Source of the DNA: Paramarasmius palmivorus
Taxonomy: Eukaryota > Basidiomycota > Agaricomycetes > Agaricales > Marasmiaceae
Length of the DNA: 64,000 nt
Reading direction: 5' to 3'
Assembly: GCA_037176845.1 (NCBI GenBank)
Contig: JAYKXP010000005.1
Location: 1-64,000, forward strand
Shown: piece after piece, positions 1 to 20,641 of the stretch
How the letters are laid out: the number at the start of each line of letters is the position of its first letter
How positions within the stretch are numbered: the stretch's first letter is position 1
Notes under the pieces: generated by a model
What the model was told of the DNA's origin: nothing
Databases searched by the model: none
What the model saw: the letters and a program-made list of their open reading frames with translations, nothing else
Position numbers and translations under genes: made by a program

Positions 1-648
1 AGGTTGAATGATGCACTTCGGCAGATTGCGTTTGGGTTTGCGAAAAAGGCGAAGTTGGTGGATACCGAGGAGGCGAAGGCGTATAGGGCTAATTATGCCA
101 GCGCTAAAGAGTTTGCCGCGGGCGCTAGTCCTCCTAATTTTGTCCTGTGCGATACCGCCACTGCGGATACGTATTGGATTGGGACGTTACTTGCGGAGAG
201 GTTTGAGAATACCACAAAGTTATTTACGAATGGGACGGGGGTTTATTGCACCACGCAACAAGAGGATAATGCTACCCTGGAGGTTCTCATGCGGGGTGAT
301 ATTTCCGGCTTCGTTGATTTTTCCAGGATTATTATCATGCGTACGGCTTCGGATATTGATAGACCTTTCCCTGGGCAAACCGTGGCGGAAGGCTTGTTTG
401 CAGAGCAAGGAGGTTTCGAACCTTCTATTGCGAACATCTACACTGCGGGGGTCAAGGTCGTACAGGGTATTTTGGCGGGTTGGGATCGTCAATTTAGTGC
501 TGGAGTGAAACCGAAGAATTATATTGGAGATATATTCGGCTCGCTGGGAGGACAACCCGATTTTGGGCCAGGGAGCATCTTTGGTGGGCAGCAAGCGCCG
601 TCTACCAGGAGATCTCTGAAGAGGAGAAGCGTTCACGTTGGAGCATAG
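1..648 (+). CDS. Purine nucleoside permease (NUP)-like protein, C-terminal part, cut by window edge
   Basis: The frame is open from base 1 to a TAG at 646-648, so this is the 3' end of a longer gene. The residues resemble the fungal NUP family (purine nucleoside permease, nucleoside-phosphorylase-like fold): an R-TASD-DRP-PG motif near residue 118, then GGFEPSIANIY and a VVQGILAGWD-like helix. Family members are described as nucleoside uptake or processing proteins, but the true substrate cannot be read here. The tail after 'NYIGDIFGSLGGQPDFGPG' is low complexity and ends in basic residues. No intron is visible in this part. A frameshifted copy of its last 115 bases lies at 8597-8723, where the segmental duplication begins. 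The family call is good; the function is family-level only. Confidence 0.72.
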   Translation, partial: RLNDALRQIAFGFAKKAKLVDTEEAKAYRANYASAKEFAAGASPPNFVLCDTATADTYWIGTLLAERFENTTKLFTNGTGVYCTTQQEDNATLEVLMRGDISGFVDFSRIIIMRTASDIDRPFPGQTVAEGLFAEQGGFEPSIANIYTAGVKVVQGILAGWDRQFSAGVKPKNYIGDIFGSLGGQPDFGPGSIFGGQQAPSTRRSLKRRSVHVGA

Positions 649-725
649 TTAATAAATACGAGCACTGGCCACTGTATAGATACGAGACCTAACGACTTCT
701 TTGTGTTATTCCTCTATTCCGCGCC

Positions 726-1989
726 TTATACCTCCTTGTTCAGGCCTCCGACGCGAACCGAATCACCAGATTGATTGAAGGTGCTAAATTTGGGCGAAGG
801 TTCGAGCGGATAGGAATCAATTCTGGTGGTGGTACCACCAGAACCTGGGTGCGACGCGGGCCAGGAGCGTCCTACCGCGTTAGCAGATCTCGAGTCGGCG
901 GTAGTCCAAGCCTTCCGTGTAGCGACTCTGCTTATGATCAAGAGAGGCGCTATTACCTGCCAATGGAACCCCGCGGTCAGATGGGAAGATAGACGAGGAA
1001 AGCTTTCACAAACCTGAGCTTGGAAAAGCACGGGTAGAAAAATGGACGCAGCGGTATTTCCTGCGGCGTACAGCCCGATAAAGAGAACCGAGAAGACCGC
1101 ATAAATTGCAGAACTCTCGACGAGCATACCGACTATAGGCATATACGGGAGGCCGTTCCAACTTTGCATCGATTGGGCTTTGACCATTCTACGATGGTGG
1201 ACCAGTAATCGAGTCGATATCAATAGTGTGAGGAGGATGTTGAGCGTAGTTGCCAGTGAGAAGTACGTCAAGCCAAAATTCACGGCACTTGCAGTGAAAA
1301 GGGTTGCATCTGGTCGAGATAGTTGGTACATATAAAGGATTCCCATAGCTAAAGGGCTCGTCAGACTAGATCAATGAGCTATCAAATAGGGCTTACAGAT
1401 ATCCGCCAGGTAAAGAAGTATAGGAAGAATCAAAACCCATTGGTGACCTTGCCAGATGACTTTGCATCGAAATAACTGGGCTTGCGATTAGACATGGAAG
1501 AGGTAAATAACAACACCCTTACCAAGAGTCCGTCTGCTAGCCAGTTAGCAATGACGAAACTCGTGTTGGGTACGAGGGCATGCCAATTGGTGAACATTGA
1601 AAATGAATATGCTTCAGGTCCTCCGGGAAACTCGCGGTTGTCAATGAAACTTAGTTGCATGAGCCTGACGTTCATGGCCGTGTAAATTGTACCGAAACCG
1701 AAAAGGACGAATGTATATGCAGCAAGATAATAGTTCCGCTCGCGGCCATGCTTGGGCCGTAGAAGACAGCTCATGCATTTAAAGAAAAGCACGATCGTGA
1801 AACCTGTAGCTTATTGATTAGTCAATGAAGAACCTGATATGTTTTCGCTGACGCACCATAGCATATCTCCGAGAGCTGAATACCAGCAAAGTCGGCATGC
1901 TCCAGAAAGATTACTTCAGCCGGAAGGTCAGGGGCATACGGATTGCCAGTGCTAGGACTCGTGGCTGCTGGAACGTTGGGATCCGACAT
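726..1989 (-). CDS. Seven-TM orphan membrane protein, copy A
   Basis: Five exons can be joined. Exon 1 starts at ATG 1989 and ends at 1857. Exon 2 begins at 1803 with GFTIVLFFKCM. A short exon encodes a CKVIWQGHQWVLILPILLYLADI-type segment, then the long exon within 1346-1017 and a last exon ending in TAA at 726-728. The protein has about seven hydrophobic segments, a conserved NREFPGGPEAY loop and a basic cytoplasmic tail. This architecture matches a large, unnamed family of mushroom 7-TM proteins, distinct in sequence from the STE3 pheromone receptors. Its role is unknown; being co-duplicated with the peptide and UstYa genes makes a receptor or transporter role worth testing. Copy B encodes the same protein at 8811-10064. 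Confidence 0.75.
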
Positions 1990-2532
1990 TTTCAGAGTTT
2001 GGGATGCTCTGAGGGATTCATCACGACTATCTACATCTCTTTATAGGGTAAAATGCAGTGGATGTTGACAATATTGTGAACGCTAGTAACAATATTATCA
2101 TGAAGTTCTAGTATTCCGTGACTGGTTAACTCACAGCGCTTTGATCATCACATAGATGAAACTGTTCCGATGGTAGGGACTGATGCATTGGACGTCGTTG
2201 ATATCTGGGGCGCAACTTGTATACCTTGAAAGGGAAAGGGTGAAGCTCCGATGGTGGAGGTTCTGCGCAAATGCAAAGATGTTCCGTCTGGATTGTACCT
2301 TTCTGCTGGATGCTATTCTTAGTATTCTCACGGTTCGGAAATTTCTCCGTCGGATTTTTCTGAACCAGTTTCGGCTTCAGTGCTTCGTTCAACTAGACTT
2401 ACATCGTTCAAACTCTATCATACTGCCCTGTCAATGGATCACACGGTCATTCAGAGAGGGCAAGGTCCATTTTCAAGGCATTTTGGTACCCATTCTTCCC
2501 CGGCACTGGCAGATATCTCTAGGCCTTAACAA
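1990..2532. promoter_or_regulatory. Divergent promoter region, copy A
   Basis: This non-coding stretch separates the 7-TM gene (-) from the type II membrane protein gene (+). A TATA-like element (tttata on the + strand, 2040-2045) sits about 50 bp upstream of the 7-TM start, and the same element recurs in copy B at 10115-10120. No convincing gene is seen inside; the longer open frames here have no counterpart in copy B. Confidence 0.5.
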
Positions 2533-3446
2533 ATGCATTCCTCTTCATCGGAATCACTGCAACCAATGCTCACAGGTGCAGAGACTCAGAGAAAGGACCA
2601 TGGCATTTCTCGGCTATTGCTATGGTCTTGCCTCATTTTTTCCGTATTCTCATCCATATGCGCGATCGCCCTGCTCCGCCAGCCTTCTGTATCCGTATTG
2701 TCACGACAGCGGTCTCAGGGGCAAGTTTTGCGTCGGCCTAATCCCTACATCAACCTCGACCGCGCGTATAGGCGAAAAGGAGGAAATCGCCTTCTTCCAA
2801 TTCATAGCTTTGCACACGTCCTTCTGCAGATCAATGCGCTAGACCAGCATAGAAAGTTCTTGCCCGAGGAAGAACGTGAATACCATAGCATCGAAGGGTT
2901 CATCTATCCTGACGATCGCCATTTTGTTGTATCCCCCGAGGTTGGTGGAATAGAGGTCTTTCTTCACAATTACTGAACAGTGTTCTCAGACATCGACGGT
3001 CGTCCAAATCAGACACCAAGACTACGGAATGGAAAACTGCACACTAGAGTTGTCAACCCCTGACAGATTAAAAACTGCCTTCGATCCGGCAGTTCATATC
3101 AACGAGTCTACCGTCATTGACATATGGATATTGGACAATACTCGCGAGATATCTCGTTACGACCTCTGGGATTACGCACCAGCTCGAGAGCATCTCTTCA
3201 CCTCCGTCATAGTCTCGAGACAAGGCTGGAACGAGAGTAGGCATTACTTCCACTGCCCACCAACATCCTTCAGCACATTTGAATTCGCCTGCAGGTCGGA
3301 TGATCGGAACTGCCACGTTGAGTTTTGGCAGCGGAAAGCTGTTCCTCCCAACGGTAAGTCTAGTTTCCATATGGGACATTCTTCTGGCACTGACTTCGAA
3401 CCTTCAAGGCATATATCTCACTCAACACGACTCGTTGACTTGCTAG
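2533..3446 (+). CDS. Uncharacterised type II membrane protein, copy A
   Basis: Three exons: 2533-2940, then 2990 to about 3354, then a short terminal exon ending at TAG 3444-3446. The intron at 2941-2989 joins SPE to TSTVVQIRHQDYGMENCTL. A single hydrophobic segment near residues 25-48 follows a short cytoplasmic N-terminus, so the bulk should be lumenal or extracellular. That part contains YPDDRHFVVSPE, a DYGMENCTL segment, DNTREISRYDLWDYAP and three or four Cys, and it ends NGIYLTQHDSLTC. Agaricomycete genomes hold related hypothetical proteins, and I know of no assigned function. It points towards the crystallin-like gene, with the two stops 67 bp apart. Copy B retains every exon. Confidence 0.7.
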
Positions 3447-3512
3447 TCACATATGAACATCGCAATGAATGATATTTGATATACATGTTTCCAATACATT
3501 CTGTGAACTTCT

Positions 3513-4226
3513 CTAACGAAGGTAACAGTTGAACGCCACCAATCTGTCGTTGTAGTTGGTAGCAGCCAGATTGTAAATGGCTCCGGAGTCGATCTTGATA
3601 CCATCTCCCAAGCAATTACTCGAGCTACACGGTCAACCTCGATCAATGCTGGATATAAAAAGACAATTCAGAGGCACTTACACCCAGAAATTACAACCCA
3701 CTCGAGAATCCAAGATGCGGATGCTCGAAAGAACATTGGTCCATCCATTCCCTAGTCCATAACAAGCATCGCAGGTTATGCTCCACTGAATGCACGATCC
3801 AGCAAAGTTGGCATCGGTGCAGGCATAAAACACATCGACAACTTCTTCCTCCGTAGCGTCGGCCTCTGGTGGCTCGTAGGCAGGCCTCCCAAACCCAGTG
3901 ACTTTGGCCCAGTTACCTGTACCGTTGGCGTGTGGTTCAATGGGAAGACAAATGCTGGGTGCTGAGACACATGGGGATGTAAGTCTCGCGTTCAATATTT
4001 TCATACATGATACTTACTTCCGATTGAGCATTCGCTGCCTTTGGTGCATGTCCCTTCGATATCACTGCCACAGGCATCAAATAGCTGCCAGGACTCGTTA
4101 ACAGGGAGCAGTATAAGGAATGTACCATGAACTTACCGGTATGCCCTCTGGAAGCGCAGCTGCATTCCCCTGCTGACTTCGTGCAGCCAAAAGCAACATA
4201 ACAGTACTCAGACGGAGCTTGAACAT
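3513..4226 (-). CDS. Small secreted Cys-rich protein, beta/gamma-crystallin-like, copy A
   Basis: Four exons are joined from ATG 4226 to TAG 3513-3515. The signal peptide is MFKLRLSTVMLLLAARSQQGNA. The mature part carries LFDACGSDIEGTCTKGSEC, then VFYACTDANFAGSC, CYGL, a SSI strand and GCNFWV, and it ends SGAIYNLAATNYNDR. The 'ACTDANFxGSC...SSI...GCNFW' pattern resembles fungal secreted beta/gamma-crystallin-like domains; this assignment is an inference from the pattern. Paired Cys suggest disulfides and secretion. It is convergent with the upstream type II membrane gene and divergent from the UstYa-like gene. Copy B has two tandem versions at 11537-12271 and 12773-13509. Confidence 0.7.
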
Positions 4227-4537
4227 GCTTTGTCGTTCAATGCTCTGAGCCTGTGCTAATTAATAAGTAAGATCCTAAATTCACCTGTCGATATATGGTT
4301 GATCTCTAGGCTGTTCAATTCAAGAAACACTTCTCAAAAGGAAGTGCCGTACATTACCTTATCCGCTATAATCAGAAAGGTCCTCGTTCGGCTTCCTAGC
4401 CGATGTACAGGTACCGCAACTACTTTGAGTTCTATTCCCGTTCGACCCACCTACTTAGGACTAGTCCGTCCCGAACTTCACGAAAGTTCAAGAGTGGACC
4501 ATAAACTGGCTCCGGGAGATACATCTCTTCGCAAATC
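4227..4537. promoter_or_regulatory. Divergent intergenic region, copy A
   Basis: A 311-bp spacer separates the secreted Cys-rich gene (-) from the UstYa-like gene (+). It presumably holds both promoters. I see no ORF conserved with the copy B spacer (13510-13776) and no clear TATA box. Confidence 0.35.
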
Positions 4538-5241
4538 ATGTCTACTCGCAGACTGCTCATGATAGCTGTTGCAGCATCTCTAATTCTCAGCTTCAGCAGC
4601 TTTGTTGCTGTAGGTTGGACCTTCTGGCATAGACATCTAGTCCCACTACCGAAAGTGACAAATACTCAGATCGATTACAGTGAGTCTTCGTTCCGACAAG
4701 TTCAAACACTTTCTGAAATATGGCTTGTATGTCAGCTTATATTGCCCATGATTTTCCCTACTCGCTTCCCCTTCACGAGGAGTTCTTCGAAACACAAGTA
4801 CTCTTGACCGTCGAAGAGAGCTTGCGTTATCCTCTGCTCGGATGGGAGTCGGACGATGCCTGGAGATCTCTTGGCTCCACTTCATACGGCTATGTTCGTC
4901 TCGGAGAGTCTAGTCGCCTTTTCATGGTGACTATGTTCCACGAGATGCATTGTTTGCGGATTCTTAATCTGGCTTTCGATCCCTCCAATATTGTTGGCGA
5001 CGGCCATATTGCGCATTGTTTAGGGTATCTCCGGCAGCAAGCTTTGTGCCATGCGGACCTTACCCTAGAACCAGCTGGATGGAGTGACAGAGATCTTGAG
5101 GGTTCTGATAGACAAGATGCAACACATGTTTGCGGGGACTGGGAGGCCGTATATCGGACAGTGGAGGAAAATTGGGAGGCTTGGAACGCCACAAGGGGTG
5201 CTACTTGCGATGATACTGGACTCTGTGTAGACGCAAGGTAG
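4538..5241 (+). CDS. UstYa-like protein (DUF3328), canonical HxxHC motifs, copy A
   Basis: Exon 1 (4538-4679) encodes an N-terminal TM anchor (AVAASLILSFSSFVAVGWTFW). A 55-nt intron (4680-4734) precedes exon 2. The protein has the two family signatures, HEMHC followed by HIAHC with LGYLRQ and a further Cys, which place it in the UstYa/DUF3328 family. In ascomycete RiPP and cyclochlorotine pathways, members catalyse oxidative cyclisation or other oxidation of peptides, with the His residues thought to bind metal. Length (about 215 aa) and type II topology fit. It is divergent from the Cys-rich gene and close to a second, degenerate UstYa gene and a peptide gene, which suggests peptide modification in the secretory pathway. 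The substrate is inferred, not shown. Confidence 0.85.
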
Positions 5242-5762
5242 TCTAGCTATGTCCAAGAACAACATTCATCAGCCCGATTAAATTCGTTAGAAGGGATACA
5301 ATGCGGGAAGGGTGTACTGCAATCTTATGTCCTAGATTTCTATCATAATGCGAACCACGACAGATCATCAGCCTGAAACCCACTCTGCAGACGGAAAGGG
5401 TATGGCCATTTGAAGTCGCTTTCCTGCATCAGAAGAACTTCATGATAGCGCGCAACACGGAGTTTGAAAGCTGTGGCGCCGGTATGGATGACCTCTACAT
5501 ACATTATGAAAAGTGGATGTTTGTATAGTCCTAGACCTAGGAATAGCCATGATTGAGCCAATCGGTTGGCTAAGAAAATCGAAATGCACGCGCCTCGCGA
5601 AACTTGCGCCACATTGATTCCAGGCACCGTCATGGTACGCTGTCTCCGAAACCTTGTATCATTATATCAATGACTACACCAAACTATACCATTCGTTGAC
5701 TGTGAAACACCGTCATCGATGATCGGATCAGCTAGCACAACAGCGATGGACGTCTCTACGCA
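5242..5762. other. Spacer between the two UstYa-like genes, copy A; possible gene relic
   Basis: The two UstYa genes converge here. On the minus strand, 5343-5633 is open for 96 codons and contains INVAQVSR and, later, ARYHEVLL. Copy B (14513-15049, same strand) has DVAQMLSR and ARYHFEF in the same frame order but with a large internal length difference. This could be a decayed gene or a conserved spacer. I cannot support a functional protein. Confidence 0.3.
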
Positions 5763-6524
5763 TCAACTGCCTGAATCATAATTCCTGTAATTACTCTCAG
5801 CTTCTTCAAAGACCTGTGTCCAGTCCTTGCACGTCTCCGTCACGTCATTCACGGTCACCCTATACCCGGTGTGATTTCGAACGCTCTGCAAGCGAGTGTT
5901 GGATCGACACAAGACCATTTGTCGAAGGTAGTTCATGCAGTGTACGACCAACCGGTCGGGTTTCGCCTCTCCTTCGCTCCCGCCACCAGGGGTAGTTCTG
6001 CGGAATAGAACAAGCCCGTCTCGTATGATGCTGAGGCACCCAAGTTGATGGAATAAAGATATCGTGAATGCGCGTTTCGGCCCATTCACTGGTCCCAAAT
6101 AGATTGTTCCGTTTCCGGGAGGCAGAAGGCTTGCCCACTCGAGTTCGCTCATGTCCGTAGAAAGTCCGTAATGCGCGCTATTTTCGATGGTTATCGAGAC
6201 CGGATCTAACGAGATGTTCCATGTGCGAGGGCGGTGGCGACCAAGGTATGAATTGCCGACTCTGGTATCAGCTAGTCTGAAATTCAGTTTATCGGAATAT
6301 TCAGAAGAAATATGATGCATACAAATTGGATTCGGCAAGGTGAACGACGCCTCCATCAAGTTGAATCGGCTGCCCCGTTCGTAAATGCTGATGGGAGATA
6401 GCAGGAGAAATACGAAGACGATGACAATCAGGCTAGCATAGCGCCGCCAATGATATACTTGAGACGAAATAGAATGAGTTCCTGAGCACCTGAAAATGCA
6501 ATGCTTACCGCACTGTGCGCGCAT
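5763..6524 (-). CDS. UstYa-like protein with degenerate metal motifs, copy A
   Basis: The start is ATG 6524 (MRAQC); the open frame upstream begins with TTG, not ATG. A 51-nt intron (6458-6508, donor gtaagc) leads to VYHWRRY and a TM segment, LIVIVFVFLLLSPISIY. The family signature is present but eroded: HQLGC replaces HxxHC at the first site, and LVVHCMNYLRQ keeps only the second half of the other, followed by a conserved Cys. Copy B has HQLEC and LVTHC. If His residues are the metal ligands, this protein has lost two of four and may be a partner subunit or have changed chemistry; that is inference. It lies downstream of the peptide gene on the same strand, 239 bp away, with its own TATA box. 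Confidence 0.8.
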   Translation of the reverse strand: MRAQCGKHCIFRCSGTHSISSQVYHWRRYASLIVIVFVFLLLSPISIYERGSRFNLMEASFTLPNPICMHHISSEYSDKLNFRLADTRVGNSYLGRHRPRTWNISLDPVSITIENSAHYGLSTDMSELEWASLLPPGNGTIYLGPVNGPKRAFTISLFHQLGCLSIIRDGLVLFRRTTPGGGSEGEAKPDRLVVHCMNYLRQMVLCRSNTRLQSVRNHTGYRVTVNDVTETCKDWTQVFEEAESNYRNYDSGS

Positions 6525-6591
6525 GTCGTTGAGCTTGAGCAATCAGAACTACACCCTCAGAAGTGAGGTCTGCTTCATTGAAACACTTATG

Positions 6592-6599
6592 TTTATATA
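6592..6599 (-). promoter_or_regulatory. TATA box of degenerate UstYa-like gene, copy A
   Basis: tttatata on the + strand (TATATAAA on the coding strand) lies 68 bp upstream of ATG 6524. Copy B has the same octamer at 15803-15810, 77 bp upstream of its start, within a shared 'cttatgtttatataggg' context. Confidence 0.65.
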
Positions 6600-6763
6600 G
6601 GGCTCGGAGAAGCTTCGGACTACATGCCAAACACGATTTTGCTCTACACGACGATGTTATGGATCTCGGTCGCCGATAGTATCTATAGATGGCCTAGGCA
6701 GTTCAACCATTGGACACAGAGAGCAATTGATAGGAGACAATACCTGCGGTATGGCGGTGTTTA

Positions 6764-7001
6764 TTATACACAAATGCTAATCCCTGTGCGATCTCGTCCG
6801 AAGAGACAATGAACATCCTTCACTGCAGATGAACGGACACCTCAATATTCGTATCAATTCCGTCTATGAATACCGCTCACCTTCTTCCTTAGGTTCTTGA
6901 TACTTTCTCTCTTCAATCGGAATGGCAGAAGACCTTGCGGGATAGGCCGTGAGACAGACGAAAACAACGACAGCTAAGCCTATGAGACGTTGGAAGGACA
7001 T
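6764..7001 (-). CDS. Small secreted peptide, candidate RiPP precursor, copy A (59 aa)
   Basis: Exon 1 is 7001-6881 and exon 2 is 6822-6764, with a 58-nt phase-1 intron (6823-6880, donor gtgagc, acceptor ctgcag). Residues 1 to about 26 are a signal peptide (RLIGLAVVVFVCLTAY... ending SSA). A short charged pro-region follows (IEERKYQEPKEE), then the C-terminus VHCLFGRDRTGISICV and TAA. Copy B encodes the same architecture, and the C-terminal GRDRTGIS is identical although six of its eight codons differ silently, which strongly supports both translation and this splice. Without splicing, the frame stops after EEGERYS and loses the core. Two Cys are separated by 11 residues. A secreted, short, single-core precursor beside two UstYa genes fits a RiPP pathway; a plain disulfide-bridged secreted peptide or small effector is the alternative. 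Confidence 0.8.
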
Positions 7002-7053
7002 CTTGCAATGAAAGGTTTGAAGGCCTGGAGTCACAAGCACAGATAATCGAAGC

Positions 7054-7059
7054 TTTATA
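7054..7059 (-). promoter_or_regulatory. TATA box of peptide gene, copy A
   Basis: tttata on the + strand (TATAAA on the coding strand) is about 55 bp upstream of ATG 7001. Copy B has tttatata about 60 bp upstream of its ATG. The short leader and TATA suggest a strong, regulated promoter. Confidence 0.6.
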
Positions 7060-7248
7060 CATACTACGCGCCCTTGAATCCATCAGGTGACACAAGATAG
7101 GAAAGTGCCGTTTTGGGTATAATGTCATAGAGAATCAAGATCTGTGAACCCAGATAAGATTCGGGAATACAGGTAACTGTCCTTGAGCGAGGTTCTTCTA
7201 GACGCTATGAAGAGGAGTGCTTATAGTAAGGCTTTGCGACAAGCTTTA

Positions 7249-7532
7249 CCACCTTTGTTTCCCGGGTAAACAAACAAATCCATGTACTCATATATGCCTG
7301 TACTAGTATACCAACTTTGTCCCAACGGTTGACGAGGGCAACGATGATGCGACAACCAAGGCGGTACGTGATGTTGAAATTTTCTGAAAAAGGAAGGGTG
7401 ACGTGCTCAGCGCTTGGCGAGCTCGGAAGAAAATCGGATGCACTTTTCGCGGACAGAAACAACAAATCAGTTGTCGGATCACGCCCGAACGCGCCAACTG
7501 AACTGTTTGTTTACACGGGAAACAAAGGTGGC
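7249..7532. repeat. Inverted-repeat element, MITE-like
   Basis: The left arm ccacctttgtttcccgggta (starting at 7249) continues to about 7276. The right arm, ending at 7532, is its reverse complement with one mismatch over about 27 bp, and roughly 230 bp lie between the arms. No ORF inside resembles a transposase. Size and terminal arms resemble a non-autonomous DNA element, but I could not confirm a clean target-site duplication. A long hairpin regulatory element is the alternative. Confidence 0.5.
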
Positions 7533-8596
7533 TTTGCGGGGGGCATTACATGCTGACAGGAAACATGTGGAATGTGGGCCAGCGGAGACCGCTGGCAAGA
7601 CGAGCCCGAGGTACGAGCTTTTAGACCAGACAGTGCGAGACACGTACAATTTTACACTTCATTCGTAAGACATGTGTTTCTAAAAGTGGTTATTTGTGAT
7701 AGTATGGATCGCTTCATCTCCCTTAGCTCTACAAGATCAGGTTAGTACTATAGAGTTAAGTGAGGGGGAGGATAACTTACACGGCTTCCATGTAGGACAT
7801 GATGACGGTGGTGGCTGAATCTCACGACTGCAGGTTTGTTATGATATATTGGAGAGGAATGCCACCACGACCTCGTTCACTCCATGGACCAAATGAATCC
7901 AGCACGCAAACACAGTAATTATAGGAGTGGGTAGGTTGAACTTTGAATATTGAATTGCGGCAGCGAACGGAATTCATCGAGCACGATTAGGTATTATCAT
8001 TGTCTTGTCCTGGAAATAGTATGGGCGTCGACCTTTAGTTCTTGCCAGTCGTATTGAATGAACCGGCGTGTAAGTTTAACGAGGTAAACTGAACAATTGC
8101 ACGAGTTTGTGACAGATAGAAGGGAGAAAGCCTAACGAGATACGCACTATACTAGTATTGACTCGGAAAAACCCAACTCCCTAGGCTAACTCCGGATACC
8201 AAGCTTGAAATTCAAGAGACCGGTAGACCGAGTCAAATCATCGTGTGGACCAAAAGAAATTCCTAGATAGGATGCGTTAGTTAATGAGAAAAAAGGAAAT
8301 CGGAAGCAATCGACTTGAAATAGCCCTACAAGAGTAGGATGTCCCTGTCGATGATGATCGATAGAAAGTCCCGCCTGCTCAGTCTGAGATGGAGGGAACC
8401 AAAAAGAAACTGGGATTGCGCAACCATAAGCGCAGACTGACGTAGAGGTTCCCATGGGAGCGATAAATATGGAAAATAATTCCCATTCCCACCCGATCCC
8501 AAAAAAAAGGTGACAGAACCTCGGACTCGTAACCACAGCACAGTGCTGAGCACACATACCCAGTGTTTTTTTTTTTTGCAAGCTTCTGCGAAGGAA

Positions 8597-8723
8597 TATT
8601 CGGCTCGTTGGGAGGACAACCTGATGTTGGACCAGGGAGCGTTTTTGGTGGGCAGCAAGCGTCATCATCTAAGTTACCAGGAGATCTCTGAAAAGGAGAC
8701 GAAGCGTTCACGTTGGAGCATAG
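8597..8723 (+). pseudogene. Frameshifted 3' stub of the NUP-like gene
   Basis: This matches 533-648 of the NUP-like gene: IFGSLGGQPDVGPGSVFGGQQA is readable. An insertion then shifts the frame into an early TGA, while the original terminal TAG (8721-8723) is still recognisable. The rest of the gene is absent upstream. It marks the left breakpoint of copy B. Confidence 0.85.
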
Positions 8724-8810
8724 GTAATAAATACGAACACGGGCAACTGTACAGATACGAGACCTAACGATTTCTTTATGATACGTCTCTGTGACACTCC
8801 TTTGCGTGCC

Positions 8811-10064
8811 TTATACCTCCGCGTCCTTGTTGAGGCTTGTAGCATGTACCAAATCTCCGGATTGATTGGAAGGCTCTAGCGGATAAATATCGACCTTTGT
8901 GGTTGTACCACCAGAAGCTGGTCCGGACGCAGACCAGGGACGTTTGATTGCGTTGGCAGATCGTGAGTCAACGGTGCTCCAAGCCTTTCGGGTGGCAACT
9001 CTGCTGATGATCAAGAGCGGGGCTATGATCTAGTCGTGGTAAACCTTTCATCAGAGGGGAACTAACGAAGCAGATTATGATCCACCCACCTGGGTTTGGG
9101 AGAGGACAGGAAGAAAAATATAAGCTGCGCCACTTCCAGCAGCGTATAGTCCGATGAAGAGAATGGAGAAGATTGCGTAAATTGCAGAACTCTCAACGAG
9201 CATGCTGATTATAGGTATATAAGAGAGGCCCTTCCAGCTCTGATTGGTCTGGGCCCTGACCATTCTACGATGATGAACCAGCAAACGAATCGATATCAAT
9301 AATGTGAGAAGGATATTGAGCGTGGTTGTGAGCGAGAAGTAAGGTAAACCAAAGTCCACTGCACTTTTGGTAAAGAGTGTCGCATTTGGCCGAGAAATCT
9401 GGTAGAGGTAGATGATAGCTACGGCTAAGCGCGTGTTAGCATGTGGCGCTGTGGACGAAATAAACCCGACTCACAAATATCGGCTAGATAAAGAAGTATC
9501 GGAAGAGCCAGGATCCATTGATGACCTTGCCAGATAACTTTGCATCGGAATAACTAGAGTTTATCATTAGATATGAACGAAACCTCTCGCAGCACTCTTA
9601 CCAATAGCCCGTCTGCCATCCAATTAGCAACGATGAACATTGCATTGGGTACAAGACCACGCCAGGTATTGAACATTGAAGATGAGTATGCCTCTGGCCC
9701 TCCGGGAAACTCGCGGTTGTTGATAAAACTCAGTTGCATGAGCCTGACGTTCATGGCCGTGAATATTGTACCAAGTCCAAACAGGATAAATGTGTATGCG
9801 GCAAGAGGATAGTTCCGTTCGCGACCATGCTTTGGCCATAACAAACAACCCATGCATTTGAAGAAGAGGACGATCGTGAAACCTGACCAAATGTCGGTTA
9901 GTCGAGCGAAGGCATAATGAAGACGCTACCGTTAGCTTACCGTAGCATATTTGCGAGAGCTGGATACCAGCAAAGTCGGATTGCTCCAAAAAGATAACTT
10001 CAGCAGGAAGGTCAGGGGCATATGAGTTGCCAGTGTTATCCATGGCTGTTGTAGAGTCCGCCAT
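8811..10064 (-). CDS. Seven-TM orphan membrane protein, copy B
   Basis: The exon pattern is as in copy A: ATG 10064 (MADSTTAMDNTGN), then GFTIVLFFKCMGCL, a short exon with CKVIWQGHQWILALPILLYLADI, a long TM exon (within 9420-9090) and a last exon VIAPLLIISRVATRKAW ending in TAA 8811-8813. TM segments and the NREFPGGPEAY loop are conserved with copy A, while the termini vary. No stop codons or frame breaks are seen, so both copies look functional. Ligand and function are unknown. Confidence 0.75.
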
Positions 10065-10547
10065 CTTTGCGAAACGAGGGGCTCTGGTATATTCATAGCG
10101 TTCATTCACGTCTCTTTATAGTCGGAACTGCAGCAGATATGGGCAGTACCAAAGATGCTGGTGCATATGAGTCTAATGAATGCGACGACTATGTGAACTC
10201 ACGATGCATCATCCAAGTGAGTGAAACTCGGGATCCGTCGACATATCGGAACTCTAAAGACCTAGAGGAAGCGAATTACGATGAATGTTGAATGTTGTAC
10301 TTGTAAGATAGAAGTTCAGGACAATTGTTCGGGGTTGAATGTTGAGCGCTAGTTGAGCGTGTGCCTTGATTCTCATGCATATGGTGTGGGTCCACCATTT
10401 ACGACATCGCTCAGTTGACTCGTGTTGAACTTCTTCATCGACATCATTCGGGCTAGTAATGGTTTGCCGGAAGTTTAGGGAGAGCAAAGCTAGGTTTTTG
10501 ATGTATTTTGGAACCCATTCTTCCCCTACGCTTGCGTATCTCGACAG
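10065..10547. promoter_or_regulatory. Divergent promoter region, copy B
   Basis: This spacer corresponds to 1990-2532 in copy A. A TATA-like tttata at 10115-10120 lies about 51 bp upstream of the 7-TM start, as in copy A. No gene is supported inside. Confidence 0.5.
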
Positions 10548-11471
10548 ATGTTTTCGCCCTCGACAGAATCACTTCAAACAGTCTACCCAGGTCCAAATAA
10601 GAAGACCTGGGGTTACGGTATCTCCCGACTTTTGCTGTGGTCTAGCATCGTGGTTTCTCTCACTTCGTGTATTTGCGCCATCGCCCTTTTCACTCAGCCC
10701 ACTTTACCCTTCTTGACACGAAAGCAAAATCAAGGGCGACTTCTTCGTCGGCCTAACCCCTACATCAACCTCGACCACGTCTACGACTCGAACTCGGAAG
10801 AACGTCTTCCATTCCCTCCAATCTTCAGCTTCGCGCATGTTTTCCTGCAGATACAGCCCCGGGACGACAATCGAAAATTCCTACCAGAGGATGAGCGCGG
10901 ATACTCTAGCATTGAAGGCTTCATCTACCCTGATGATCGGCATTTCGTAGTGTCTCCCGAGGTCGGTCCATTCGTCTTTGATTGCATACAACCGCTTAGG
11001 GATATTGCTAGACATCGACAGTCATCCAAATTCGACACCAGGATTACGGCATGGAGAACTGTACACTCGTGCTAGGCATCCCAGACCTATTGCAGGTGCC
11101 TTTCGATCCAGCACTTCGTATTAGCCGCTCTTCAATGGTCGAGATATGGATGTTGGATAATACACGGGAAATATCTCGCTATGATCTCTGGGATTATGCA
11201 CCTGCCCGAACACGTCTCTTTGCTTCTGTCACTGTGACGAAGCAAGGCTGGAACGGGAGTGAACACAGTTTTCACTGTCCCTCGACATCTTTCAGTACAT
11301 TCGAATTTGCATGCAAGTCGGGCGATAAAAGCTGCTACGTAGAGTTCTGGCAAAGAAAAACTAGTGCTCCCAATGGTATGTCTTTCCGCGGATTGGCTTA
11401 GTTTCAAGTCTGAGGCAATTCTACAAGGCGTGTATGTCATTCAACGCGACTCGCTGACCACTCGCAAATGA
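10548..11471 (+). CDS. Uncharacterised type II membrane protein, copy B
   Basis: Three exons mirror copy A. Exon 1 runs from ATG 10548 to SPE, the middle exon holds DYGMENCTL, DNTREISRYDLWDYAP and STFEFACKSGDKSC, and a short last exon gives GVYVIQRDSLTTRK with TGA at 11469-11471. One TM segment (SRLLLWSSIVVSLTSCICAI) lies near the N-terminus. Conservation is strongest in the lumenal part. The stop is 66 bp from the stop of the convergent Cys-rich gene. A remnant of its 3' end lies further right (12630-12730). Confidence 0.7.
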
Positions 11472-11536
11472 AGGAAGTCATGAATCGCATTCAATATGTT
11501 ATTACAACAAGATATACGATCCAATTCCCATACATC

Positions 11537-12271
11537 TCAACGAAGGTAACAGCTATATGCGATCAGCCTGTCGTTATAGTTCGTGGCAGCCAAGTTGTAA
11601 ATGGCACCAGAGTCGACTTTGATACCGTCGCCGTTGCCACAATTGCTCGATCTACATGTGGCCATCAGTCACTGATAGGTATGATGACAATAAGATCAGA
11701 GATACTTACACCCAGAAATTACATCCTACCTCAGGAGTCGAGATAAAGATGCTCGAGATAGCTTTGGTATATCCTGCCGGTAGTCCGTAACAAATATCAC
11801 AGCTAGCTGTCTGTGTCATGCAGCTCCCCTGGAAATTGGCGTCGACGCAGGCGTAGAAGACATTGAACGTTTGTGCCGCGACAGACTTAACTGATGGGTC
11901 GTACATTGGCATGCCCGACCCAGTGACTTCGGCCCAGCTATCCGTGTTGTTGGTCTGTGGTCCGACAGGAAGACAAATACCGGATGCTACAGATGTACCT
12001 ATTGGGTGAGTGTCTTGCGAAACACTTCCATGCAGATTCTGACTTACTTCCACCAGAGCATTCACTTCCTTTAACGCATGTTCCTACAATGTTACTTCCA
12101 CAGGTACCAAGAAGCTACACTTAGTAGTTAGCGAAAAAGAGTGGACGAAGGTACCGAGAGGGATCGACTGACCGGTATGTTCACCTCTTGCTGTGGAAGT
12201 GAAATTGCGTTCCCGAGTCGAATCTGGGTCGCCAGAAGGAATATAACAGCATTCAGATCAAGCTTGAACAT
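11537..12271 (-). CDS. Secreted Cys-rich protein, crystallin-like, copy B1
   Basis: Four exons run from ATG 12271 to TGA 11537-11539. The signal peptide is MFKLDLNAVIFLLATQIRLGNA. The mature segments LLGTCGSNIVGTCVKGSEC, VFYACVDANFQGSC, CYGLPAGYTKAISSI and GCNFWV keep every Cys seen in copy A. It ends NLAATNYNDRLIAYSCYLR. Intron positions equal those of copies A and B2. The role is unknown; secretion and disulfides are expected. Confidence 0.7.
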
Positions 12272-12772
12272 CCCTGGCTGCTCACTGCACTGAATTTGTG
12301 TTGCCAGTGATGTCTGCCAGTGTTTTATTTCGTTCTGCTTATTCCGATTCACACCTGTTCAAATCCGGATCTGGAGATTCTTCCTACAGGTCGTCGGCAT
12401 GCCCCACGTCATTTGATCGTACCTACTGCAATCAAGAAGCGCCTCATAAGCAAAGGCACAGGATCAAATTTCGGGAATGCAGTAGAAAAGTTCGCATGAG
12501 ATAGCTCCGAAGTCTTATGCGTTACTAATGATGATACGGCTTTGGCTCATCGTACATGTGCTGCCTGTGCTTCCTGTTTATCGTGCAATCTTGAATCTGG
12601 GTGTATTCCGGACTCTCGGGTGACCAGAATGGTCGCATAGCTCTCAATAGTACGTTCTCCCACAGATTGGCCTGGTGTTGAGTCTGAGGTTCTCTTTCAA
12701 GGCATATATGTCATCAATACAACTCGTTGACGCCAATGGGAATACAAAGGTATTTCATTACAATACAGTATT
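12272..12772. other. Spacer between tandem Cys-rich genes
   Basis: The left part is the promoter of gene B1, similar to the sequence upstream of gene B2. The right part holds the relic of the type II membrane gene described separately. No intact gene is seen. Confidence 0.6.
12630..12730 (+). pseudogene. Relic of type II membrane gene 3' end
   Basis: Sequence from about 12630 resembles the end of the penultimate exon, last intron and terminal exon of the gene at 10548-11471. After a 'tctctttcaag' acceptor, 12702-12730 still reads IYVINTTR followed by TGA, matching VYVIQRDSLTTRK. No upstream exons are present, so it hitch-hiked with the tandem duplication and cannot encode the protein. Confidence 0.75.
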
Positions 12773-13509
12773 TCAGCAAGGATTACTGCGGCAGTAGCAG
12801 CTATACGCGACCAACCGGTCGTTATAGTTGGTCGCAGCCAAGTTGTAAATGGCATCAGAGTCGATGTTAATGCCATCACCGTTGCAATTGCTCGATCTAC
12901 AGTTGGCCCTAGGTCAACATTAGGTATGATGACAAGATCGAACCGGCTTACACCCAGAAATTGCACCCGTATTTAGGGCTCAAAATAGAGATGCTCGATA
13001 TAACGTTGGTGAATTGGGCGTCTAGCGGGACACAAGTATTGGCACAGGTGGTTTTCCCCGTCATGCATCGCCCTTGGAAGTTGGCGTCAACGCAAGCAAA
13101 GAAGACATCGACATCTGCCTCGACAAGTTTGACTGAGGGGTCGTACATCGGCATGCCGAACCCAGTGACTTCGGACCAGTTATGCGTGTTGTTGGTCTGA
13201 GGTTCGACAGGAACACAAATTCCCAGTGCTACAGCTATACCTATTATGTGAGTGTCTTGCAAAACGCTTCTACACATGTTCGGACTCACTTCCACCAGAG
13301 CATTCGCTTCCTTTAGCGCATGTCCCTGGAACATTGCTTCCACAGATACCAAGGAACTACAGCAAATGGTTAATCAAAAGGCATAACCGTCGGAAAGATA
13401 ATAGACTGACCGGTATGTTCAACTCTTGTCGTGAAAGTGAAACTGTGTCTCCGAGTCGGATCTGGGTCGCCAGAAGGAAAATAACAGCATTCAGATCGAC
13501 CTTGAACAT
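12773..13509 (-). CDS. Secreted Cys-rich protein, crystallin-like, copy B2
   Basis: Four exons run from ATG 13509 to TGA 12773-12775. The signal peptide MFKVDLNAVIFLLATQIRLGD is followed by FLGICGSNVPGTCAKGSEC, VFFACVDANFQGRC and GCNFWV. It ends YNDRLVAYSCYCRSNPC, with two extra Cys beyond B1. The middle segment between the second Cys pair (CMTGKTTCANTCVPL) also gains a Cys, so this paralogue may form a different disulfide pattern. The exon-intron layout is unchanged. Confidence 0.7.
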
Positions 13510-13776
13510 CCCTGGCTGCTCAGTTCACTGGACTCGTGCTGCCAATGATCCCTGTTTTATCTAGTTCTGCTTGCTCGCATACTGATTTAAATCAGGAAAT
13601 TGTTCTTACGGGTCACAGGCATGCCAGAGATCGTTTGATCGCTCCTGTAATTAGGAAGGTAAGTCCTCCAAGGCACAGGTACCAATGTTTCGAGATGTGC
13701 CGGCAATAGCTCCGAAATCATGTAGTAGGAGGTTCAAGAATGAACTTGGGACACTGGTTGCAATACCCCACCGCAC

Positions 13777-14485
13777 ATGTCCACGAACAGATTACTTCTA
13801 TTTGTCGCTACTTCGCTGCTCGCTCTTAGCCTCAGCTGCTTCGTCGCCGTGAGTTTGGCCCTCTGGCGTCAACTCTCACCACCATTGTCCATCGCGAATG
13901 ATGTCGAGTATAGCAAGTCTCCATGGGCTTAGTTGTCATTCTAAAACTAACTTGTTTGGTTTTTTGGCTCATTCTATAGCATACATTGCTCATGACTTTC
14001 CCTACTCGCTCCCTCTTCCTGAGGAGTTCGCCGACACACGGGTGCTAATGGCCGTTGAGGAGAGCTTGCATTATCCACTGCTTGGATGGCAGTCAGACGA
14101 TGCCTGGAGGTCACTTGGCTCTACTTCGTATGGTTACGTTCGCCTTGGGGAACCCAGCCGCCTCTTCATGGTGACGATGTTCCACGAAATGCATTGCTTG
14201 CGAATCCTCAATCTGGCTTTCGATCCGTCCAATATCGTTGGCGATGGCCATATCGCGCATTGCCTGGGATATCTTCGCCAGCAGGCTCTGTGCCATGTGG
14301 ATCTCACCCTAGAACCGAAGGGTTGGATGCACAGAGACTTCGGAGGCCTTGATAGGCAAGGCGAAACGCATGTATGCCGCGATTGGGAAGCCGTATATCG
14401 GGCGGTAGAAGAGAATTGGAAGTTGTGGAATGCCACAAGGAGTGCCACTTGTGATGATTTCGGGCTATGTGTAGATGCGAAATAG
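13777..14485 (+). CDS. UstYa-like protein (DUF3328), canonical HxxHC motifs, copy B
   Basis: Exon 1 (13777-13912) encodes MSTNRLLLFVATS and a TM anchor. The intron 13913-13979 starts with gcaagt, a GC-AG intron where copy A has gtgagt. Exon 2 carries AHDFPYSLPL, GWQSDDAWRSLGSTSYGYVRLGE, HEMHC and HIAHC with LGYLRQQALC. Both metal motifs and the core are nearly identical to copy A, and no frame break is present. The catalytic role in peptide oxidation is inferred from the family. Confidence 0.83.
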
Positions 14486-14963
14486 ATTCACGGGTTCCCA
14501 CAGGAACTCGGTTCATTCAGAGGGTCCACAGATACTTGACCAACATATGAATTCATCAGATTTGTGAACAGAGCTCGAGCGTATTTTGGGAACGCTGTAT
14601 TTCGTATCGCGATCCGCAAATGTACTTGCTTGTTGAATTTCGCACGTTCCTAGCACATTGTTATGATCACAGAATAGCTCTGAACAGATCGTGCCTTTGG
14701 AAAGGGCCTGGAACTGTTGAACATTGAACTCGAAGTGATAGCGCGCTTGGGCGGGAGAAGTTGTTCTCGAGAGCATTTGCGCCACATCATTGCAGTAGCA
14801 TAAATAACCACTACGGAGTCCAATCCCCGAAACCTTCTGTGACCTTTGGCCGTGTGGAACCAATTGAGAAACCAGGTTCTCCCATTGTATTCTGATTTGT
14901 CGGTTACTCGTGTCGACTAAGTATAAGGCAATGAATGCCGTGAACCAGGAGCATTGTATAGCA
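14486..14963. other. Spacer between UstYa-like genes, copy B; possible gene relic
   Basis: The minus-strand frame at 14513-15049 is open but overlaps the end of the neighbouring UstYa gene, and it shares only short motifs (VAQ-SR, ARYH) with the copy A spacer. Conservation is patchy with a large length difference. I do not call a gene. Confidence 0.3.
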
Positions 14964-15726
14964 TCAATCGTTTGACCCGTGTACATCATAACTGCGTTCC
15001 GCCGCTTCAAACACCTGTGTCCAGTCTCTGCACGTTTCTGTAATATCACTCACAGTCACCCTGTAACCGGTGTGATTACGGACGCTTTGCAGACGAGTGT
15101 TGGAACGACACAAGACCATTTGTCGAAGGTAGTTCATGCAATGTGTGACCAACTGATCAGGCTTCGCCTCTCCTCCAGGCCCGCCACCAGGGGTTGTTTT
15201 ACGAAATGAAATCAGCCCGTCTCGCACAATTCCAAGGCATTCGAGCTGATGGAAAAGCGATACGGTTAACGCCTGATTTTGTCCATCCACCGCACCCAAA
15301 TACATGGTCCCGTTTCCTCTTGGTAGAAGACTTGCCCATTCCTTCTCGCTGATGGCCGTAGAAAGTCCGTAATGAGCGCTATTTTCTATAGTCATCAAGA
15401 CAGGGTCCAGCGCAATGTCCCATGTGCGAGAGTGGTAATTGTGATAGTATAGATTACTACCAACTCCGACATGATCTGCTGTAGATGTCAGGTTCGAGTT
15501 TGATATTGAGAAGATGGGAAGGTACGAACTATTCGGGTTGCCAGACGATTCTTGCAGTAGGCTTGGACGGCCGCGTTGATGAATGGCAATGGAAGAGAGA
15601 AGCAGGAACATCATGGTAAAAATGGCCACGCTGACATAGGGGCCACCCAAGAATTGCCGGTGGTATACTAGGACTAATAGAATGAGAGTTCCGAAGACCG
15701 TGCAGAGACGACTTACCGCACTGCAT
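14964..15726 (-). CDS. UstYa-like protein with degenerate metal motifs, copy B
   Basis: The start is ATG 15726 (MQC), followed by a 49-nt intron (15668-15716, donor gtaagt) and a TM segment (VSVAIFTMMFLLLSSIAI). It shares IENSAHYGLST, EWASLLPxGNGT, LRQMVLCRSNTRLQSVRNHTGYRVTV and DWTQVFE with copy A. The first motif is HQLEC and the second LVTHC, so the same two His positions are missing as in copy A, although the replacing residues differ (G versus E). The loss therefore predates the duplication or is tolerated. TGA ends the frame at 14964. Confidence 0.8.
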
Positions 15727-15802
15727 TCGCTTCTTTTATCAAACACTCACACGACTTGAGCTTGAGGTTGCGAGACTCTTCATTTCATACAAACAGCTTA
15801 TG

Positions 15803-15810
15803 TTTATATA
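15803..15810 (-). promoter_or_regulatory. TATA box of degenerate UstYa-like gene, copy B
   Basis: tttatata on the + strand lies 77 bp upstream of ATG 15726 and matches the copy A element at 6592-6599. Confidence 0.65.
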
Positions 15811-15941
15811 GGGATACTAGACTGGGAAATTCCGGACTACATGCACAATGCTGACGAATTTGGTCATCAGAGCGTCTATAGATACAGTTCAGCAACATTC
15901 AGAAGAAGCAGGGGACGGGCGACGATACCTGCGGGTATTCG

Positions 15942-16176
15942 TCACAGGCAGGCGCTGATTCCAGTACGATCTCTCCCAGAGAGACAATAAACCTCCCTGA
16001 CTGGGAATAAAAGAACACCTCAGCGTTCCGCCTATCTTTGACAATGGAGTCTATTCACCTTCTTCAGTATGTTCTTGAATTCTCTGTTTGACCAGAAGTG
16101 CGGAGGACTCTGCCAGATATGCTGCGAGGCAGATAAAAGCAATAACAGATGTGTTGATAAACCTTCGGAACAGCAT
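15942..16176 (-). CDS. Small secreted peptide, candidate RiPP precursor, copy B (58 aa)
   Basis: Exon 1 is 16176-16059 and exon 2 is 16000-15942, with a 58-nt phase-1 intron (16001-16058, donor gtgaat, acceptor cccag). The signal peptide is MLFRRFINTSVIAFICLAAY ending in an SSA-type site. The pro-region LLVKQRIQEHTEE has diverged, but the C-terminus VYCLSGRDRTGISACL is kept. Against copy A, the last 21 residues have 15 identities. In copy B a Tyr precedes the first Cys where copy A has His. No classical KR/RR Kex2 site flanks the core, so processing is unclear. Unspliced translation would stop at EEGE. Likely substrate of the neighbouring UstYa proteins; this is inference. Confidence 0.8.
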
Positions 16177-16634
16177 CTTGTAATGCAAGGTTAGGTCGTC
16201 GAGAATTGATTGTAACGACTCAAAGTCTCAAGGCCTTTATATAACGGGTCATTTGGTCCTCGCACCAATCAAGTAACACTGAACACAGTACCTTAAACAC
16301 TATTTAGTATTTCCGCAAAAGTACATGTCTTCTTTTCGCTCGGGACGCCATGTTGCAGCGAAGGCCAGTCCTCCGCACGGAAACTAGCAAGAAAGAGTAA
16401 AGGCGTCCTGACGTGTAGTTCATCTAGAATTCAAGTAGTTTTAGAACAAGTCTTATCCAAAAAACATTAAGCACGATACGAATGCATACCTGTATTTCGG
16501 GCTTCGGCTCTTCGGAAAGATGATGGTTCAAGTCAAAGAGTGCAAATGACGACTTGTCCAGTTAGCGGACAAAACGCGAGTCAAGCAGCAAGCTCGAATT
16601 TTGACTCGGATCTTGGCCTTTGACTCTGTCCATC
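16177..16634. other. Intergenic region at the right edge of copy B
   Basis: The left 110 bp are the duplicated peptide promoter. The remainder is unique sequence upstream of the branched-chain aminotransferase. No gene is seen. Confidence 0.5.
16236..16243 (-). promoter_or_regulatory. TATA box of peptide gene, copy B
   Basis: tttatata on the + strand, about 60 bp upstream of ATG 16176, within a block homologous to copy A. Confidence 0.6.
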
Positions 16635-18363
16635 ATGCCTCTCGCGTCTTCTTTACTTCGCTCAAGGCTTCCTCAAAGTGTTCTTCAAGTAGGGTATCGC
16701 TCAAAATTGTCATGGGGTGCATCTGCAATCCCAACACGCCTGCAAAATACATTGGCACCGACATCCTCGAGTCAGACGCCTTCATTAGACCCAATGACAG
16801 GAGAAGTTGTTGCATTACCTGATATACAGGTAACAAAGAGCCTTTGGAATCAGCGGAAGAAATGTAACCAAGTTCTGTAGCCAAATAGACTTGTTATCAC
16901 AAAGAACCCAAACCCTACACCACCACCTTCCTCGAAGACGTTGGTCTTTGGCCGGACTTTTGTGAGTAGTGAGGAGTAGAAGAAGATACACTTTTTGACC
17001 AGCAACCTTTGCAGACGGATCATATGCTTACCATTCCTTGGGATGCAGTTAACGGATGGGCCGCACCTCAGATCCAACCTTGTATGTTCTATCAACACTG
17101 GAAGATCAAATCACTCTGATTAAGCATGGCTAGATGGACCTCTACAACTTGATCCTAGCACCACCGTTTTGCACTACGCGCAAACATTGTTCGAAGGCAT
17201 GAAGGCATACCGCGACGATAACGGGAAAGTGACCTTGTTCCGCCCGGACATGAACATGAAGCGGATGAACAACAGCGCAAGGAGAATCGCGTTGCCGGTG
17301 CGTTGCAAAGATCGCTGATATCAGGATGTCTACTCATTGAGCCAACAGACTTTTGACGGCGATTCTCTACTAGAGTGTATCAAGGAACTTATTCGGCTGG
17401 ACAAGCATTGGATCCCAAGAGAACCCGGTCACTCGTTATACATTCGTCCCACACTCAGTTGAGTTTTCGTGAATTTTCACTGCGAGAACGCGTAAAACTC
17501 AACCGTAACGTTCAGTCGGAACGCAAAAGTTCATTGGAGTCGCCCCACCTAGCGAAGCCCTTCTTTTCGTTATCTGCAGTCCTGTAGGACCCTACTACCC
17601 TAACGGTTTCAAGCCCATTGCACTATACGGTACCACGGAGTACATACGCGCGGCGCCTGGCGGTGAGGAATGTCATTATTGGTCCCATAACCAAAGGCTA
17701 AGTCCCCACAGGCACTGGCGCCTACAAACTTGGTGTTAACTATGCTCCTGGTGTAATGCCTCAGAAGGAAGTCGCAAAACAGGGGTATGCTCAGAACCTC
17801 TGGCTTCATGGCCCAGAACACTATCTCACCGAGGTACGCTCCCTATTATCCAGCAAGATGTGATACTGAAGGAGCATGTAAAGGTCGGAACGATGAACAT
17901 GTTTGTCGTACTCAAAGGAGATGACGGATGTGAGTGCCAAAAAGATTGTTGATCATCAAGAGACTGATTATCTTTGGTAGCCTACGAACTCATAACGCCA
18001 CCTCTCGACGGAATGATTCTTCCTGGTGTTACCCGTGATTCTGTTCTTGCTCTCGCACGGGAACACATTACAGGCATCAAGAAAATACCAAACCTTCCCG
18101 AGAACCTCAAAGTGTCCGAGAGGCCCATCTCGATGAAGGAAGTCAAGGAAGCCTCCAAGACAAATCGTCTCGTCGAGCTTTTCGGCGCTGGTACTGCCGC
18201 CGTTATTAGTCCCGTTGATAGAATCGGCTATCTCGGCGAAGACATCCACATTCCTACAGGTGAAGATGGCATGGGTCCAGTCTCCAGGCCAATCTGGACA
18301 GAGTTGGTTGGACGACAGACGGGCGCGATACCAAGTGCATGGAGCGTAGTTGTCTCCGAGTAA
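16635..18363 (+). CDS. BAT1: Branched-chain amino-acid aminotransferase, probably mitochondrial
   Basis: A PLP-dependent class IV aminotransferase that interconverts Leu, Ile and Val with their 2-oxo acids. About nine exons can be joined from ATG 16635 ([15 protein letters not shown], an Arg/Ser-rich presequence of about 45 residues suggesting mitochondria). Motifs in order are [55 protein letters not shown], the PLP-lysine segment [27 protein letters not shown] and [28 protein letters not shown] follows SAWSVVVSE. The intron ending at gtaaag (near 17882) must be removed to give YLTEVGTMN. Length fits the family. Confidence 0.9.
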
Positions 18364-18558
18364 TTTATCTGAATCTGCTTCATCTTGTTTTACATAGAGG
18401 TCTATGTAGAGAAAGACGTCAAGAACTAATAAAAAAAGGTACATAAGAAATGCGCCCTGAATATTGAAAGCATAAAAAAGGGGGAGAATAATACATGTAC
18501 AGAGTCTATACATTCACTTCTTGATTCTTCCTTTCCCTGAAACTTTTCTTCCCCAACA

Positions 18559-19398: not shown

Positions 19399-19694
19399 GG
19401 TGGAAGATTTTGAACACTGACAGTGAGAAATTTGAGTCACAGGCCCTGACTTTATCACTTATCAAAATAGGTACGTCATGCGTTGCGGCAGAGCTACGCT
19501 ACTCAAGTAAGGACAACTTTCGAAAACACCAGGGCGTAACAATTGCATATAATGAACAGGTACAGAAATGCGTGTCAACTAGTGGACATTAAACTATAAG
19601 AGCATTGACAACAGCATAGAAAATTATATGTAAAAAGATGACTGTGAACCGAACAAAATCCAAGTTCATGAAACGTGAATGACGTGACTCTTAA

Positions 19695-20641
<947 letters not shown>

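Follow-up and report, generated by a model that had tools for sequence, protein, structure and literature searches.

A candidate single-core precursor peptide gene beside paired UstYa genes in Paramarasmius palmivorus

Background

Ascomycete UstYa proteins act by oxidising secreted peptides of ribosomal origin, according to the accessible sections of two reports (PMC9233826, PMC7329392). The dikaritins covered there (ustiloxin, phomopsin, asperipin-2a and victorin) have small secreted precursors encoded beside UstYa genes, and the known dikaritin cross-links use Tyr or Phe, as far as the available text goes. The KEPs of Basidiomycota carry a signal peptide, lie near DUF3328 in a minority of cases and are defined by repeats with Kex2 sites (PMC7329392, PMC9769878, in their available parts). 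A survey of 1461 fungal strains recorded a nearby DUF3328 gene for 6.1% of the repeat precursors in basidiomycetes (103 of 1680), versus 1647 of 5372 in ascomycetes, and its authors asked whether cyclisation is scarcely present in basidiomycetes or proceeds through a different motif (PMC7329392, accessible portion). In Pleurotus ostreatus, 16 UstYa-like genes, six of them developmentally expressed, were reported and a dikaritin role was called probable (PMC8893723, excerpt). For the UstYa clusters of lichens, which are ascomycete, the available part of PMC12048977 reports that no precursor was found and identifies no single-core precursor; its authors propose that, where repeats are missing, the precursor may have just a single core or may be encoded away from the cluster. 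The literature searched, which consisted mostly of titles and the starts of abstracts and did not extend to subscription papers or preprints, gave no description of single-core UstYa precursors in basidiomycetes.

Here we analysed a 64,000-nucleotide stretch (hereafter, the window) from the 68.3 Mb genome of Paramarasmius palmivorus (Agaricales, Marasmiaceae), which contains a candidate precursor gene, W1. Like the dikaritin precursors, W1 would encode a small secreted peptide beside UstYa genes, one of them a canonical double-HxxHC protein (uC) that recurs in all seven comparable units of the genome. Unlike the dikaritins in the sources available, the W1 type has one core, no repeats, no KR/RR and an intron between leader and core; its uC is paired with a degenerate UstYa (uL), But2-like and 7TM-like proteins are further partners, and there are cores, as in W1, without Tyr. 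Where the dikaritins have repeated cores and Kex2 sites, we found one exon-2 core per gene, and the W1 type likewise has neither of the features by which the accessible text defines the KEPs. We read the gene as a putative single-core, exon-encoded variant of UstYa (dikaritin-like) precursors, and the combination of a tiny spliced peptide with two UstYa genes in several copies suggests a modified-peptide route in mushrooms that is so far undescribed.

Results and discussion

Structure of the candidate gene and its neighbours

W1 lies at 6764..7001 on the minus strand and, once spliced, reads as a 59-aa peptide with a signal peptide, an acidic pro-region and the C-terminal KDVHCLFGRDRTGISICV. 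Exon 1 spans 7001-6881, with the ATG at 7001; the 58-nt, phase-1 intron (6880-6823) runs from the donor GTGAGC, beginning at 6880, to the acceptor CTGCAG, ending at 6823; and exon 2 (6822-6764) includes the TAA at 6766-6764. This spliced reading of the minus strand bears out the two-exon gene for a secreted peptide proposed in an earlier note on this DNA, and the early end of the unspliced frame that the note described is equally real (a stop after 45 aa). The signal peptide was called from hydropathy and the -3/-1 rule only, in W1 as in the other confident candidates. Neither KR nor RR occurs in the 59 aa, in which RK stands at residues 32-33, and all seven confident candidates of the genome carry a single unrepeated core; the single core and missing KR/RR site reported earlier were thus correctly described. 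Upstream, a TATA box (TATAAAG; 7053..7059 on the minus strand, as placed from its distance) has its first base 58 bp before the ATG.

W1 is followed after 239 bp, on the same strand, by uL (5763..6524, minus strand; ATG 6524, 51-nt intron 6508-6458, stop 5763; PF11807 E 1e-14), in which FHQLGC and LVVHC stand in place of HxxHC. Beyond it, on the plus strand, lies uC (4538..5241; PF11807 E 7.5e-16), which carries HEMHC and HIAHC and has at least one intron, the limits of its exon 1 being approximate. The earlier distances therefore agree with these models, both for the gap to the UstYa-like gene (uL ATG at 6524) and for a canonical UstYa gene about 1.5 kb away (stop at 5241), the latter on the opposite strand. 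At lower coordinates in the window are a But2-like gene (2510..3472, plus strand) and a gene for a 7TM-like membrane protein (750..1960, minus strand), both with several exons and approximate limits.

A second copy of this arrangement comprises uL at 14964..15726 (minus strand; PF11807 E 6.2e-15), uC at 13777..14485 (plus strand; HEMHC and HIAHC; PF11807 E 2.7e-15), a But2-like gene at 10494..11401 (plus strand, limits approximate) and a 7TM-like gene at 8840..10064 (minus strand, limits approximate, no Pfam match). All four UstYa genes exceed the PF11807 cut-off, and uL in the window has FHQLxC plus LVVHC or LVTHC. The structure model of uL (mean pLDDT 43) was left unused. Both But2-like copies are absent from the PF09792 list and take their name from relatives, for which a PF09792 assignment was precomputed in 3 of 19; a But2-like structure model (pLDDT 79) had no PDB match at E ≤ 0.001. 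When six further peptides or pieces, the hand-built 7TM model, a But2-like piece and a secreted neighbour were compared with Pfam, nothing reached the cut-off, with two sub-threshold matches (E 0.17 and 0.084).

A tandem paralogue and constraint on exon 2

We found a paralogue, W2, at 15942..16176 on the minus strand, encoding 58 aa with the C-terminus REVYCLSGRDRTGISACL (peptide end YCLSGRDRTGISACL). It repeats the exon structure of W1, with exon 1 at 16176-16059, a 58-nt intron at 16058-16001 (donor GTGAAT) and exon 2 at 16000-15942, and its TATA box starts 65-67 bp upstream of the ATG. An alternative acceptor, giving a 62-nt intron, would produce an unrelated C-terminus. RR occurs at residues 4-5 of W2, inside the signal peptide. 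Both genes lie within a tandem duplication, most repeated blocks of which are spaced 8.0-9.2 kb apart. On the evidence of this tandem paralogue, with its same exons and intron length, the predicted structure of W1 is more than chance.

The two copies share 66% DNA identity in exon 1, 55% in the intron and 68% in exon 2, as against 54% in the upstream 100 bp and 63%, with many indels, in the gap to uL. DNA identity by itself thus fails to set exon 2 apart, because exon 1 and the flank are nearly as alike. The exon-2 differences fall at codon positions 1/2/3 as 4/4/11 (P = 0.024) and those of exon 1 as 15/11/15; for both exons joined, 26 of 60 differences are at position 3, which is not significant (P = 0.068). 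Estimated dN/dS is about 0.31/1.31 over both exons, while dS is not computable for exon 2 alone. As far as this comparison of sequences goes, the spliced frame of exon 2 is under constraint between the two copies.

The possibility that W1 is not a gene, its frame and intron both arising by chance, gains something from the lack of a homologue in the protein database and from exon-2 DNA that is hardly more conserved than the downstream flank. We nevertheless judge it very improbable in view of the third-position bias in exon 2, the same intron in the paralogue, the TATA boxes and the recurrence of the gene type elsewhere. W1 alone gave no protein-database candidate sharing three words, and an alignment of seven sequences (A5) gave 129 candidates, none at E ≤ 10. 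A search of the own genome with W1 returned four matches, which were the two exons each of W1 and W2 only. The exact DNA pattern guessed for exon 2 had no match, nor did the plasmid collection, and Rfam at the gathering threshold gave 0 matches in window positions 1-20000.

Recurrence of the module in the genome

PF11807 matched the genome 48 times, at about 15 places. Outside the window, uL/uC pairs occur at five of these, namely C205a (42-46 kb; with a near-identical, truncated copy on C152), C205b (65-69 kb), C103, C11 and C49; with the tandem window copies counted separately, this makes seven units. Counted by eye, the double HxxHC is kept by uC in 7/7 units and by uL in 0/7, and all five outside places also have a 7TM-like and a But2-like gene. 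PF09792 at E ≤ 10 was found at six places, the same five plus the C152 copy, and all eight matches of a search with the window But2-like protein (two window copies included) were in uL/uC loci. Chance alone would be very unlikely to put six independent But2-like places near UstYa, by a rough estimate that assigns about 0.5% of the genome to UstYa surroundings.

A confident two-exon secreted peptide gene is present in 6/7 units, and the UstYa association is thereby replicated within the genome. The seven confident candidates are W1, W2, L048 (C205b), L049 (C103), L051 (C11) and, both at C49, L052 and L063; in each, hydropathy indicates a signal peptide, and a single GT-AG intron (phase 1, 49-74 nt) precedes one short exon 2. 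In three of the other loci the peptide gene shares the strand of uL and begins 333-406 bp beyond it, on the downstream side. The exon-2 products are unrelated: VEDFARGPQPAGHFTPSQGRVD in L048, GAPPPSVFLT in L049, SDEFKGPPSPGPFLAVDDD in L051, GGEGCDNIAAECP in L052 and GSDSCFAPPCP in L063. The acceptor is ambiguous in W2, L052 and L063, and the alternative changes the C-terminus, so the L063 core may differ. L052 and L063 share an exon-1 type (MQFK...), and an IPxEEIDG-like pro-region is found in L048, L049 and the weak candidate L047 (IPAEEIDG in L047), while alignments of all candidates have almost no conserved column. At the remaining locus (C205a/C152), uL, uC, But2-like and 7TM genes are present and the only peptide candidate is L047, an eighth and weak one with a 49-residue exon 2, no TATA box and no branch-point match. 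The space between uL and the 7TM gene at L047/L053 held no candidate in the three frames of the uL strand, and the L049 peptide matched only itself in its own genome.

The conserved 16-residue C-terminus of the earlier note therefore stands for the tandem pair, in which 12 of 16 residues are identical, but not for the other confident candidates, whose C-termini are unrelated in 5/5. Its reading of the gene as a RiPP precursor fares similarly: the association with UstYa recurs, whereas the core is not conserved beyond the tandem duplicates.

These cores also bear on a plainer account. W1 could be an ordinary effector-like or antimicrobial peptide, small and secreted, with one disulfide, clustered with UstYa genes by duplication and left unmodified by them. 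W1 and W2 do keep two Cys, 12 residues apart (C46 and C58 in W1), are predicted to be secreted and have TATA boxes, and both C49 cores, as modelled, carry two Cys; the L048, L049 and L051 cores, however, have none, and coincidence poorly explains a gene type that recurs in 6/7 units with unrelated cores. We consider this account unlikely.

Exon 2 of W1 reads VHCLFGRDRTG, an HCx5RTG loop, and the core could alternatively be a piece, or an imitation, of a tyrosine-phosphatase P-loop that was gained as an exon. HCx5R is the mark of such phosphatases. Y_phosphatase3 was the sole Pfam family for both peptides (E 0.0073 and 0.055 for the exon-2 pieces; 0.034 and 0.13 for the whole peptides), and the five PDB sequences listed were all PTEN (E 0.44-0.69). 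Yet all four pieces fell under the curated Y_phosphatase3 cut-off, and W2 has Tyr for His, leaving HCx5R in W1 only. Eighteen residues are too few for a catalytic domain, the own-genome peptide search led to no sequence besides W1 and W2, and the five other confident candidates, with their unrelated cores, had no phosphatase match (some pieces padded). The phosphatase resemblance of W1 exon 2 is probably coincidence, and a P-loop origin seems to us hardly credible.

The 7TM-like gene, present in 7/7 units, raises the further possibility that the peptide is a signal, matured by the UstYa pair and perceived by the clustered 7TM protein as its receptor. Of the 12 best 7TM places (E below 2e-9), eight are beside UstYa genes, although the place at C4:595, among these 12, duplicates the window 7TM gene at 97.8% identity, perhaps as another haplotype, and at E ≤ 0.001 only 9 of 29 matches are so placed. 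Neither the hand-built 7TM model nor the exon pieces had a Pfam match, and the protein is a receptor only putatively; we hold a signalling role to be improbable. As a separate observation, at C31:372 kb and C85:29 kb the two UstYa genes with the highest scores each have a 7TM-like relative about 2.2 kb away, and no But2-like match was listed there.

A scan for repeats in 21 loci outside the window picked out the C21 locus alone, in which a repeat gene with ...DAFDNKNIWIKRE units, apparently about one per exon, lies beside UstYa on the minus strand (C21:163 kb). With this gene and the single-core genes, the genome appears to hold both precursor types. The C21 sequence (L016:1-829, minus strand) has the look of a multi-exon precursor with ...NIWIKRE units (IWIKR repeats), a Kex2 repeat gene of the known type.

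Controls on the peptide calls

We applied a strict scan combining a hydrophobic start with a cleavage site, a phase-1 intron of 45-82 nt, a branch-point match and an exon 2 of 6-30 residues, a filter that was chosen after the first examples were known. From the 86.6 kb of cluster DNA it recovered 5 of the 7 confident genes, against none in 105.4 kb taken from elsewhere in the same genome (P = 0.016 for 5 to 0 against these real controls) and 6 starts in simulated DNA totalling 1.04 Mb (P = 1.7e-4). The two genes that it overlooked were W2, which has the donor GTGAAT, and L048, which lacks a branch-point match. When the scan was relaxed, the targets yielded 13 starts, the real controls 2 and the 1.04 Mb of simulated sequence 30, so that relaxed matches mean little. 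In all phases, 110.9 kb of control DNA gave 6 candidates, 0 of them in phase 1.

The TATA box provided a control independent of splicing. TATAWAD begins 44-74 bp upstream of the ATG in 6/8 candidates (none for L051 and L047), against a background of 44 of 2270 window ATGs at 40-110 bp. When a TATA element plus hydrophobic start was sought in 12 loci, with the variant TATAAG allowed after L051 was known, 17 starts were detected; eight correspond to the seven confident peptides (L051 by two ATGs) and five come from the 15-kb stretch that separates the C205 clusters and contains no known module.

Proposed pathway

On balance, we think it probable that W1 encodes a precursor with a single core for a modified-peptide pathway of the UstYa type. 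Spliced, TATA-bearing genes whose secreted products end differently from one UstYa unit to the next fit a constant maturation set acting on a variable core. Under this model, exon 1 would supply the signal peptide and acidic leader that carry the chain into the secretory pathway, and exon 2 would add, at the very end of the peptide, a single core of about 18 residues. Canonical uC, together with degenerate uL, would oxidise that core in the ER/Golgi lumen; the leader would be cut off by a protease at a putative cleavage point, and the product would leave the cell by secretion. Assistance, transport, sensing or protection are possible roles of the But2-like and 7TM proteins. Because W1 lacks Tyr and the L052 core has no aromatic residue and no His, a Tyr ether cannot be general.

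More broadly, mushroom-forming fungi may have an unrecognised class of modified peptides with one core per gene on its own exon, matured by uL/uC and accompanied by dedicated But2-like and 7TM proteins, a proposal that we put forward tentatively, at somewhat less than even chance. If it is true, a core alone on an exon behind a phase-1 intron would let leader and core evolve separately, with cores exchangeable as exons, and repeat-based mining would be blind to the class; this would account for the small share of basidiomycete repeat precursors that have DUF3328 nearby. Single-core precursors would then be one possible answer to the question of basidiomycete cyclisation, here with named gene pairs.

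Further observations in and around the window

At 3680-4226, 11709-12131 and 12951-13373 the window encodes small secreted proteins that are related to one another and end in GCNFWV; by tblastn these three matched in the window but in none of the remaining uL/uC loci covered by that search. At its start, contig C4 (L065:1-1948) is 97.8% identical to window positions 10022-8596 and 80.5% identical to 1938-1. It then enters a frame of 395 codons that looks permease-like by eye; only remnants of this frame seem to be present in the window, and the boundary between C4 and the window seems to be that of a duplication or a haplotype.
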